A stretch of DNA of 64,000 bases from Arthrobacter hankyongi. GTDB lineage: Bacteria; Actinomycetota; Actinomycetes; Actinomycetales; Micrococcaceae. Positions 16,233 to 62,006 of the stretch are shown here, piece by piece. The notes below the pieces were generated by a model. It was given only the letters and a program-made list of their open reading frames with translations. It made no database searches and had not been told where the DNA came from. The position numbers and the translations under genes were made by a program. Every line of letters starts with the position of its first letter. The first letter of the stretch is position 1. Where the stretch lies: positions 1-64,000 of the forward strand of contig NZ_JAKLTQ010000014.1 in the NCBI RefSeq assembly GCF_022012395.1. The letters are read 5' to 3'.

Positions 16233-16280
16233 CGAACCACGGCCGCGCCCACCCGCCAAGGTGGACGCGGCCGTGGTTCG
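16233..16280 (-). terminator. terminator hairpin after phoX
   Basis: Twenty-one-base arms (16233-16253 and 16260-16280; CGAACCACGGCCGCG and its complement, one mismatch further in) surround a six-base loop, starting eight bases past the phoX stop. It has no U-run but is very stable. Confidence 0.7.
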
Positions 16281-58273: not shown

Positions 58274-59422
58274 CTACCCCAAGGCCGTCCTGCGCACCAG
58301 CGGGTGCCCGCCGGAGCGGGTGCGGGCCCCGCGCGCCAGCTGCTCCAGCACGCCGGCGGTCATCTCCCAGTCCATGCACGCATCTGTCACGCTCTGGCCG
58401 TAGACCAGGCCCGGCGCCGGCTGGTCCGCGCGCACCCCGGCGGCCGGGAGCTCAAGCTTCTGCGCTCCCGGCATCAGGAAGCTTTCCAGCATGACGCCGG
58501 AAATCGCCTCGGCGCCGGGGCCGCCGGCTTCCAGCCGGGCGGCCAGTTCCACTGCCACTTCGGCCTGGCGGTGGTGGCTCTTGCCGCTGTTGCCGTGGCT
58601 GGCATCGACGATCAGCCGTGGATTGAGCCCCGCCGCGGCCAGCCGTGCGGAGGCTGCGGCGATGTGCTCGGGATCGTAGTTGGGTCCGGCGCTGCCGCCA
58701 CGCAGGATCAGGTGGGTATCCGGGTTGCCCGCGGTAGCCAGCAGGCTGGCCCGGCCCTGCTGATCCATGCCCAGGAAGGTCTGCGCCGCGGCGGCCGCCG
58801 TGCAGGCGTCCAACGCCACCTGCAGGCCGCCGTCGGTCCCATTCTTGAAACCGGCCGGCATCGGCAATCCGGAGACCAGCTGGCGGTGGATCTGGCTCTC
58901 GGTGGTGCGGGCACCGATGGCGCCCCAGCCGACGAGGTCGCTGAGGTAGAGGGTGCTGACCGGCTCGAGGAATTCGGTGGCGACCGGCAGGCCCAGGTCC
59001 GCGACGTCGAGCAGGAACCGGCGGGCGGTGCGCAGGCCCGCGGCAATGTCATGGGAACCGTCCAGGTGCGGGTCGTTGATCAGGCCTTTCCAGCCGACCG
59101 TGGTCCGGGGTTTCTCGAAGTAGGTCCGCATGACCACCAGCAGGTCGCTGCTGTGCTGGCGCGCCGCGGCCGCCAGCCGGCGGGCGTAGTCCAGCCCGGC
59201 CTCGGGATCATGGATGGAGCAGGGCCCGGCAATGACCAGCAGCCGGTCGTCGACGCCGTTGAGCACCGCCCGGATCTCGTCGCGGCCGCGTTCGACGGCG
59301 GCGGCCAGCCGGGCGGGCAACGGCAGTTCCGCGCGCAGTTCGGCCGGCGAGGGCAGCGGGACGCAGTGGTCCGCGCCGGCCGCGTGCGGATTGCCGGCGG
59401 CCAATTCGGTGGTGGTGGTCAT
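58274..59422 (-). CDS. aroF: 3-deoxy-7-phosphoheptulonate synthase, class I (AroF/G/H type)
   Basis: A 382-residue DAHP synthase that condenses phosphoenolpyruvate and erythrose 4-phosphate, the first step of the shikimate pathway. It shows LLVIAGPCSIHDPEAGLDYA, VVMRTYFEKPRTTVGWKGLINDP, RFLLDVADLGLPVATEFLEPVS, GWGAIGARTTESQIHR, GLPMPAGFKNGTDGG and LIVDASHGNSGK. It is the allosteric AroFGH class, not the AroG class II enzyme of mycobacteria. Its 179-base leader encodes an aromatic leader peptide and a terminator-like hairpin, so expression is probably attenuated by aromatic amino acid supply. Confidence 0.95.
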   Translation of the reverse strand: MTTTTELAAGNPHAAGADHCVPLPSPAELRAELPLPARLAAAVERGRDEIRAVLNGVDDRLLVIAGPCSIHDPEAGLDYARRLAAAARQHSSDLLVVMRTYFEKPRTTVGWKGLINDPHLDGSHDIAAGLRTARRFLLDVADLGLPVATEFLEPVSTLYLSDLVGWGAIGARTTESQIHRQLVSGLPMPAGFKNGTDGGLQVALDACTAAAAAQTFLGMDQQGRASLLATAGNPDTHLILRGGSAGPNYDPEHIAAASARLAAAGLNPRLIVDASHGNSGKSHHRQAEVAVELAARLEAGGPGAEAISGVMLESFLMPGAQKLELPAAGVRADQPAPGLVYGQSVTDACMDWEMTAGVLEQLARGARTRSGGHPLVRRTALG

Positions 59423-59480
59423 GGGGTCGTCCCGTCTGTCAGGGCGGGAGCCTCATCAGAACCCGCCGGAGAAATGGCGA

Positions 59481-59504
59481 AGGGCAGAGAATGATCTCTG
59501 CCCT
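59481..59504 (-). terminator. terminator-like hairpin in the aroF leader
   Basis: On the minus strand AGGGCAGAG (59504-59496) pairs perfectly with CTCTGCCCT (59489-59481) around six bases, 58 bp before the aroF start. It is preceded directly by CAGAGCCAAC (59514-59505), which pairs perfectly with GTTGGCTCTG inside the leader ORF (59572-59563). The arrangement resembles ribosome-mediated attenuation, although a clean alternative antiterminator is not obvious by eye. Confidence 0.65.
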
Positions 59505-59538
59505 GTTGGCTCTGAAGGTTTGTTGGATGCGCACGCCG

Positions 59539-59601
59539 TCAGGCAGTCACGTCAGGCCCCTCCAGAGCCAACGCAAAATACGCATACCAACGGTTTGTCA
59601 T
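59539..59601 (-). CDS. aromatic leader peptide of aroF (20 aa)
   Basis: A 20-codon ORF encoding MTNRWYAYFALALEGPDVTA, with Trp5, Tyr6, Tyr8 and Phe9 clustered near the start, ends 117 bp before aroF. Its ATG is exactly six bases after a TAGGCT -10 box, so the mRNA should begin at the start codon. A ribosome stalled at the W-Y-A-Y-F codons would cover or free the GTTGGCTCTG segment immediately downstream. An analogous leader peptide gene (aroR) is known before aroF in Corynebacterium glutamicum. This is inferred from sequence only. Confidence 0.75.
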   Translation of the reverse strand: MTNRWYAYFALALEGPDVTA

Positions 59602-59607
59602 GGTGCG

Positions 59608-59637
59608 AGCCTACGCCCGGCACGTCGGCTTGTGCAA
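59608..59637 (-). promoter_or_regulatory. aroF leader promoter
   Basis: TTGCAC (59637-59632), an 18-bp spacer and TAGGCT (59613-59608) on the minus strand form a recognisable sigma-70-type promoter six bases before the leader ATG. Confidence 0.7.
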
Positions 59638-59664: not shown

Positions 59665-60609
59665 TCAGGCCAGCCCGGCCAGCACGTCGACCCCGAAGAC
59701 CGGTTCCCGGTCCAGGCAGGCCACCTCGGTGATCCCGTGCGGGGCCAGGGCACGGAGGATGCCCTCCCGGATCAGCGGCACCTTGGCGCCCAGGCCGCCG
59801 CCGAGGATGACCGGGCCTGCGATGCCCAACTGGCGTGCCACCTGCAGGATCTGCCCGGCCACCGCCTCCGTGCCGGCGTCCAGGATGCTGCGTGCCGCGC
59901 TGTCGCCGGCCTCGGCCGCCGCGACGACCACCCGCGCCAGCGCTGCCCAGTAGCCGCGGTCCGGACCATTCCGGCCGGCGGTGCCGAGGCCGTGGAAGCG
60001 CGCAATGAAGGCCACCGGGCGGTCCAGTCCGCAGGCTGCCAGCAACTGCGTGCACAACAGGTCGGGGGCCAGGCCAAGATCGTGGCGGTGCAGGCAGTGC
60101 CGGACGGCCTCGCGGGCAAGCCAGTAGCCGCTGCCCTCGTCCCCCAACAGGTGGCCCCACCCGCCCGCGCGCGCCTGCCGGCTGCCGTCGGTACCCCAGA
60201 CGGCGGTGCCGGTGCCGATGATCACCGCAATTCCGGTGCGGGCCCGTCCGGCAGCGAGCACCAGCCGGGAATCGTGCACCACATGGATGCTGGCTGCGGG
60301 CACCAGCGGCGCGATCAGCGCCCGCAGGGAGGCGGCGTCGTCGTCGGTATCGATGCCGCCGGCGCCGGCATAGACCTCCTGCACGTCCCCCGCGCCGACG
60401 GCGGCGATGGCCTCCGCCAGTGCCGCGGCGGCCGCGGCCCGGTCCGTGTTCTGCAGGTTGGCGCTGCCGGCCACCGCCTCGGCGGCCAGCCGGCCCGCCT
60501 CGAGCCGGATGGCGTGGGTCTTGGTCCCGCCGATATCCAGTCCCAGGATCGTCCTGGCCGGTGTCCCGGACGGGTCACCGGCCGCATGCTGTGGGTGCGA
60601 AGCCGGCAT
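59665..60609 (-). CDS. BadF/BadG-type ATPase, probable N-acetylglucosamine kinase
   Basis: A 314-residue protein of the actin-like ATPase fold. Phosphate-1 motif GLDIGGTKTHAIRL, IGTGTAVWGTDG (phosphate 2), GGWGHLLGDEGSGYWLAREAVRH and GPVILGGGLGAKVPLI (adenosine motif) fit the BadF family that includes eukaryotic-type N-acetylglucosamine kinases; the GDEGSGYWL stretch favours that sugar. Substrate is inferred. It starts 17 bp after the gdhA stop and may be co-transcribed with it. The ribosome-binding site is weak. Confidence 0.82.
   Translation of the reverse strand: MPASHPQHAAGDPSGTPARTILGLDIGGTKTHAIRLEAGRLAAEAVAGSANLQNTDRAAAAAALAEAIAAVGAGDVQEVYAGAGGIDTDDDAASLRALIAPLVPAASIHVVHDSRLVLAAGRARTGIAVIIGTGTAVWGTDGSRQARAGGWGHLLGDEGSGYWLAREAVRHCLHRHDLGLAPDLLCTQLLAACGLDRPVAFIARFHGLGTAGRNGPDRGYWAALARVVVAAAEAGDSAARSILDAGTEAVAGQILQVARQLGIAGPVILGGGLGAKVPLIREGILRALAPHGITEVACLDREPVFGVDVLAGLA

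Positions 60610-60626: not shown

Positions 60627-62006
<1,380 letters not shown>

Follow-up and report, generated by a model that had tools for sequence, protein, structure and literature searches.

Outside Corynebacterium glutamicum, little has been described of how actinobacteria control the entry into aromatic biosynthesis. In that species the aroF leader is said, after work by Neshat in 2014, to be leaderless. This leader, aroR, precedes the gene for DAHP synthase (cg1129) and encodes a peptide with the motif F-Y-F (PMC4046766; for further literature on aroR, see PMC6892785), which bears out the remark in an initial annotation of the DNA studied here that such leaders are known in corynebacteria. 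According to the available part of one report, stalling raises aroF transcription under phenylalanine limitation, and the availability of tyrosine is reported to have no effect on the operon (PMC11802643). aroR has been replaced to relieve the control of aroF (PMC7356990).

Elsewhere in the literature there is little to build on. The accessible part of a 2005 survey describes no conserved RNA structures before phenylalanine or tyrosine operons (PMC1262725), and the main text of PMC11109978, as far as it is accessible, mentions neither aroF nor DAHP. In open-licence papers, supplements aside, we found no description of the element that is the subject of this study.

Here we analyse the leader of aroF in Arthrobacter hankyongi. 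It lies in a stretch of 64,000 nucleotides, which we call the window. Judged by comparison of sequences, the leader is real and conserved and is very probably a leaderless aromatic attenuator, with a telling switch of target gene.

Results

The leader and its surroundings

The main features of the locus are as follows.

59632..59637, minus strand: possible -35 element TTGCAC, weak (from the sequence; no promoter by consensus scan)
59608..59613, minus strand: -10 element TAGGCT (TANNNT), six bases 5' of the leader ATG (from the sequence; TANNNT is conserved)
59539..59601, minus strand: predicted leaderless leader-peptide ORF, MTNRWYAYFALALEGPDVTA plus stop, 20 codons (translation, conservation, uniqueness across the window)
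59429..59435, minus strand: SD region of aroF, ACGGGAC (from the sequence)
58274..59422, minus strand: aroF, type I DAHP synthase (PF00793, E 2e-78; TIGR00034 aroFGH)

Translation of the minus strand from 59601 to 59539 yields MTNRWYAYFALALEGPDVTA, with Trp5, Tyr6, Tyr8 and Phe9, just as the initial annotation had described a 20-residue ORF before aroF. The -10 box also lies where it had been placed, six bases 5' of the ATG (TAGGCT, 59613-59608). The promoter had been called good, and this holds in part: the TANNNT element is present, but the -35 element TTGCAC is poor and a sigma-70 consensus scan at the leader found no promoter. On both strands of the window, this is the sole ORF with TANNNT 6-8 nt 5' of its start and at least three aromatic residues within six codons. 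Twenty simulated windows gave a mean of 0.0 to 0.1 matches by the same criteria, and we reject a chance ORF on this ground.

aroF is the only PF00793 match in its genome. A second DAHP synthase is of type II (L212, G000:C9:46987-48279), and no aromatic leader of the aroF kind was found before it. On the 5' side of the leader, also on the minus strand, the window holds genes for a BadF/BcrAD-type ATPase family protein (sugar-kinase-like) and a Glu/Leu/Phe/Val dehydrogenase (59665-60609 and 60627-61967). Far from this locus, at 16233-16234 on the minus strand, a hairpin of 20 pairs, with TTTCGGCC after it, forms a strong terminator-like structure.

Competing helices in the leader RNA

Nine RNA segments and hairpins recur in the analysis below; they are listed in the 5' to 3' order of the transcript.

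59579..59591, minus strand: segment 0, the aromatic-codon region, partner 0' (swap test z -6.6; 73.9% of cells paired, many gaps)
59560..59572, minus strand: segment A, GUUGGCUCUGGAG, within the ORF, partner B (covariation, scan, swap test)
59554..59559, minus strand: segment A', GGGGCC, local hairpin with A (weak in the swap test, z -2.8, 13/2000)
59522..59534, minus strand: segment 0', 3' of the leader stop (alignment pairing, swap test)
59505..59518, minus strand: segment B, CCUUCAGAGCCAAC, partner A or D (covariation, fold, swap test)
59481..59504, minus strand: hairpin C:C', 10 pairs, tail UUCGCCAUUUC, a possible weak terminator (covariation; no terminator by scan)
59464..59479, minus strand: small hairpin E:E', CGCC...GGCG (fold; swap test z -4.5)
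59457..59467, minus strand: segment D, GGCGGGUUCUG, partner B or D' (swap test; B:D is outside the top 45 scan pairs)
59443..59449, minus strand: segment D', UCCCGCC, partner D or the SD (D:D' covariation; D':SD weak)

The 179-nt leader folds more stably than 200 of 200 dinucleotide shuffles (z -4.3). Within it GTTGGCTCTG (59572-59563), which overlaps the ORF, is perfectly complementary to CAGAGCCAAC (59514-59505), and the pairing proposed earlier is thereby confirmed from the sequence. In a 200-nt fold this A:B helix grows to 14 pairs. The 179-nt fold prefers its competitors 0:0', A:A' and B:D, so the two states must be close in energy. The adjoining hairpin, previously described as nine-pair and terminator-like, is indeed found at 59504-59481, but it has 10 pairs and makes an unconvincing intrinsic terminator here: its tail UUCGCCAU is U-poor, and a terminator scan at the leader found none. 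The leader RNA is more elaborate than two hairpins. B can pair with D instead of A, and D' competes for D and may itself pair with the aroF SD.

Known RNA families do not account for the element. Between 59300 and 60000 of the window, Rfam models (T-box, trp leader and others) gave only a miRNA model at E 1.6, and ten divergent loci searched at gathering scores gave 0 matches.

A predicted leaderless start is conserved

We compared 110 aroF loci, the best 80 of 559 from named genomes and 30 from the genome itself and its relatives. In this set an aromatic leader precedes aroF in 100 of 110 loci (the window included), with 98 distinct sequences. Nine loci have none: L042, L062, the Bifidobacterium loci L068 and L074-L076, and L077-L079, from records labelled as outside the class. 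Another Bifidobacterium locus, L069, was judged unrelated and excluded manually. One record labelled Sporosarcina beigongshangi (L021) carries an Arthrobacter-type aroF with its leader; the assembly is probably mislabelled or contaminated, or the locus was transferred.

Leader starts (88 ATG and 12 GTG among the 100) were chosen without use of the -10 box. Of 95 unique upstream sequences, 94 have TANNNT 6-8 nt 5' of the start (7 nt in 49, 6 in 42 and 8 in 3), against a background of 13 in 2193 windows at that spacing. No SD-like motif precedes the start in any of the 95 loci. Together these counts mark leaderless initiation as a probable conserved design feature, in line with the annotated layout without a ribosome-binding site. 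Transcription at our locus would then start at the leader AUG, at 59601.

Codons and RNA are constrained separately

Near relatives keep the nucleotides of the aromatic and A part of the leader almost fully, and RWYAYFxxALEGP is almost invariant among close relatives. Is it the codons or the RNA that is conserved? The seven codons that precede A include on average 3.2 aromatic residues (range 1-4) in 48 representatives of less than 75% identity, whereas the other two frames give 0.1 and 1.0; after A, aromatic residues make up 0.8%. This in-frame content, held across divergent sequences, argues that the control codons are kept as codons. The A element behaves differently. Most near relatives translate it as ALEGP or ALEEP, but in L064, L065, L067 and L130 another frame turns it into GSGGA. 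That A persists despite the change of frame argues that it is kept as RNA. The codon count required a TANNNT box at the leader start, so its presence in 48/48 representatives is not independent evidence of leaderless starts.

The initial annotation had held that a leaderless leader reading Trp, Tyr and Phe together would be unusual. It is instead the common form in the class: Trp occurs in 38, Tyr in 44 and Phe in 44 of the 48 representatives.

Covariation of the helices

Two alignments were examined. A1 (MAFFT) has 49 rows: L066, L072, L073 and L080 were left out before selection, and L047, which has an insert, was removed manually from the 50 selected. In A1 the set A:B, C:C' and D:D' is paired in 92.6% of cells, with 76 two-sided cells (0/500 shuffles; slid versions at most 53.2%). 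The set 0:0', A:A', B:D and C:C' reaches 84.8% and 75 cells (0/500), with 0:0' the poorest helix at 73.9%. A3 comprises the 94 of 100 sources retained at E 3e-5; it was fitted to the first set and leans to it, and there that set is paired in 96.4% of cells with 309 two-sided cells. An unbiased pair scan of A3 places C:C' and A:B on top and two D:D' pairs within the first 45, whereas none of these 45 belongs to B:D or 0:0'. The same scan on A1 alone was noisier.

A swap test over 48 clusters, whose statistics ignore phylogeny, asks whether native partners pair better than swapped ones. They do so with 0/2000 exceptions for C:C' (z -15.2), A:B (-11.1), 0:0' (-6.6), B:D (-6.1), D:D' (-5.1) and E:E' (-4.5). 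A:A' (z -2.8, 13/2000) and D':SD (z -2.3, 26/2000) are weaker, and seven control pairings (A:D, B:C, C:A, C':B, 0':B, A:SD and B:SD) range from -1.5 to +4.0. With start codons located, 84 of 100 loci were kept after 16 exclusions and gave 26 representatives, in which the SD region pairs with the 36 nt upstream at z -3.0 (8/5000). That stretch can hold both D and D', and many of the duplexes printed use D, so this test cannot tell which of the two is the partner of the SD. Of all the helices, D':SD is the weakest.

As in amino-acid leader-peptide attenuators, we find a short ORF with clustered end-product codons and mutually exclusive, covarying helices that overlap it (A:B against A:A' and B:D). 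Comparing the aroF leaders had been put forward as a check on conserved W/Y/F codons and covarying stems; both are conserved across the class.

Distribution and target genes

The covariance model R1 finds the leader in its own genome at E 1e-29 and nothing further below 0.4. Sixty of 394 genomes of the class, in several families, have one match each: 45 before aroF (the window included), 14 before chorismate mutase and one false. The false positive, in G192 (L171), overlaps tRNA-His. A hairpin with the tail CCCUUCGUCGUU lies 3' of that tRNA gene; the tail is of the kind seen after C:C' in many aroF leaders and may be a common actinobacterial terminator form.

All 14 chorismate mutase loci are matched by tblastn with the L154 protein, and in 12 the match spans both parts of that protein. 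At L164 and L166 it covers the chorismate mutase part only and an AzlC-like gene is next; we rejected this transporter as the gene after the leader, as the chorismate mutase frame lies between. Pfam searches with two proteins of this group gave CM_2 above the cut-off and DAHP_synth_1 below it. In L154, L152, L147 and their relatives, the place usually held by aroF is taken by a chorismate mutase joined to a DAHP synthase-like domain that is weak and partial.

Chorismate mutase leads to phenylalanine and tyrosine, not to tryptophan, and the codons of the leaders fit this branch. Trp codons occur in 38 of 41 aroF representatives and in 0 of 7 chorismate mutase representatives (Fisher P 2e-6, which is illustrative only because the seven are related). 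Trp is also absent before aroF in L118 and L134 (Micromonospora-like, by guess) and in L168. The middle hairpin differs as well. Its tail has a mean of 6.6 U of 8 (6-7) in the chorismate mutase group and 4.0 (range 3-6) in the aroF representatives, with 3 in our locus. C:C' thus looks like a terminator in the first group, by its predicted tail, and not clearly so in the second.

In the class sample 78 genomes have a type I aroF, 45 of them with an R1 match. Seven of the remaining 33 have a leaderless aromatic leader by our tests: L182 and six that form a second subtype, with YFWF or YYWF. Neither R1 nor the leader tests found a leader of this kind in the other 26 of 78. The second subtype (L179, L184, L186, L197, L206 and L208, with leaders such as VQRVYFWFSKPARGG) precedes aroF, and no C:C' was seen in its six genomes. 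Its B and D face each other directly, and on visual inspection the aroF SD seems to lie within a stem (CGUGGGU/ACCCACG, for example) that adjoins the start codon. Model R2, run on 396 genomes of the phylum, matched 11, ten of them in the class, and it matches L182 too. The eleventh match, in G575, was taken as chance: it is a palindromic stretch, found on both strands at E about 1e-3.

Discussion

Comparison across the class establishes four things about this predicted element: the leaderless design is conserved, the aromatic codons are in frame, the helices covary and the gene context is kept. These are what attenuation by aminoacyl-tRNA predicts. They support the initial proposal of attenuation by aromatic amino acids or their charged tRNAs, and we put the probability that the aroF leader responds to the supply of aromatic aminoacyl-tRNA at roughly 0.85.

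How might such a leader work? The transcription start, ribosome halting, the direction of the response and the output are what we infer, as follows. RNA polymerase would start at the AUG of the 20-codon leader, and ribosomes would translate it without an SD. The four aromatic codons, W5, Y6, Y8 and F9, just 5' of A, would act as control codons. When charged tRNA-Trp, tRNA-Tyr or tRNA-Phe is short, the ribosome would halt there; when supply is ample, it would run through A. Its position would select among the exclusive helices A:B, B:D, D:D' and D':SD and so set aroF expression, higher under shortage. A halt 5' of A would block 0:0' and leave A free for B (the ON state), whereupon D:D' could form and the SD would be open. 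Fast passage would break A:B, allowing B:D to form and D' to cover the SD (the OFF state), with C:C' as a possible terminator. This exact wiring, with A:B as ON and B:D plus D':SD as OFF, we propose tentatively and at somewhat less than even odds. We prefer it because the model for ilvBNC in C. glutamicum has its control codons just 5' of the antiterminator strand.

Classical masking would make B:D the ON state. On that opposite wiring a ribosome at Y8 or F9 masks A, B:D forms and keeps D from the SD or from D', and A:B is OFF. By eye, the last aromatic codon starts 8-11 nt 5' of the A core, so that A is covered by a ribosome at that codon. Folds in which the ribosome footprint was masked agree: in 39 hand-picked sequences (a further 12 were also picked by hand), A:B stands at 0.90 with the ribosome at the first aromatic codon, drops to 0.04 at the last and is 0.88 at the stop codon. 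In Arthrobacter L005, L007, L024 and L003, masking of A raises SD accessibility from 0.12-0.37 to 0.62-0.76, and in several of them D is able to form pairs with the SD region. With the ribosome at W5 or Y6, however, A stays unmasked, mean SD accessibility over the 39 hand-picked sequences is nearly unchanged (0.39 to 0.44), and the ilvBNC model, in the part of its description available, places the codons 5' of the antiterminator strand (PMC11857589). We regard the opposite wiring as possible but doubtful. Since A:B persists when the ribosome occupies the first aromatic codon but not when it occupies the last, Trp5/Tyr6 and Tyr8/Phe9 could act differently, and the reported response to Phe and not Tyr in C. 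glutamicum also argues against an equal reading of all codons.

Could termination at C:C' alone be the output, with the D, D' and SD pairings incidental? C:C' has the strongest covariation (z -15.2), the chorismate mutase group has 6-7 U of 8 in its tail, and the attenuators of C. glutamicum are described as transcriptional. This is nonetheless unlikely for aroF, where the tail averages 4.0 U of 8 (3 here) and the terminator scan is negative, where one subtype is without C:C' and where D:D' covaries. Nor do the covariation scan or the swap controls (B:C, C:A and C':B) give C or C' an alternative partner, and a classical antiterminator of that kind was rejected. A riboswitch or protein-binding RNA with an incidental ORF would explain why the nucleotides of the leader are so strongly conserved among near relatives; it is very improbable given that the aromatic content of the frame is kept below 75% identity and that codon content tracks the target gene. 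A functional small protein acting in trans is scarcely credible: RWYAYFxxALEGP is nearly invariant in close relatives, but ALEGP tracks the RNA element, becomes GSGGA in the four loci named above, and the peptide varies widely elsewhere. The probability of chance resemblance is practically nil, as the fold z, TANNNT spacing, unique ORF, in-frame codons and covariation all speak against it and we found no point in its favour.

In its widest form, the attenuation reading becomes a class-wide switch. One leaderless peptide would read Trp, Tyr and Phe and relay the result through 0:0', A:B, B:D, D:D' and D':SD to the SD of aroF, and in a Phe/Tyr-only sister before chorismate mutase the middle hairpin would be a canonical terminator, so that a single sensor would have two outputs. 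This is speculative, and we would lean against the scheme holding in full. The element, absent from Rfam, is a natural system in which to test how an RNA switch is operated by a ribosome on a leaderless message, how three amino acids are integrated by a single leader, and how outputs of the terminator type and the SD type change into each other. It is also relevant to engineering, for which aroR has been replaced in C. glutamicum (PMC7356990).

The best reading is that the element is of the same kind as aroR of C. glutamicum but spread across the class, and its RNA architecture is one that we have not found described. In both, a leader peptide with aromatic residues precedes the gene for a DAHP synthase (PMC4046766, PMC11802643). 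In its reported peptide and response, aroR differs in having F-Y-F without Trp and a response to Phe but not Tyr. The trp leaders of Streptomyces and Corynebacterium likewise combine a control-codon leader peptide with competing hairpins, and trpL1 of S. lividans is leaderless (PMC8079986); as far as described there, they have Trp codons only, precede trp genes and use U-tract terminators. The actinobacterial LEU element of leuA also has a leader peptide and a pairing that extends to the SD of the gene behind it, but in the account available its leucine codon run itself pairs with the SD, in a pseudoknot (PMC1262725). Corynebacterium ilvBNC (the ilvB-II motif) resembles our leader in its short ORF without a ribosome-binding site, its control codons just 5' of the antiterminator strand and its competing local hairpin (PMC11857589, PMC10272879). 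It responds to branched-chain amino acids and, in the parts of these sources available, its terminator and antiterminator overlap at a trinucleotide, unlike C:C' and A:B here.
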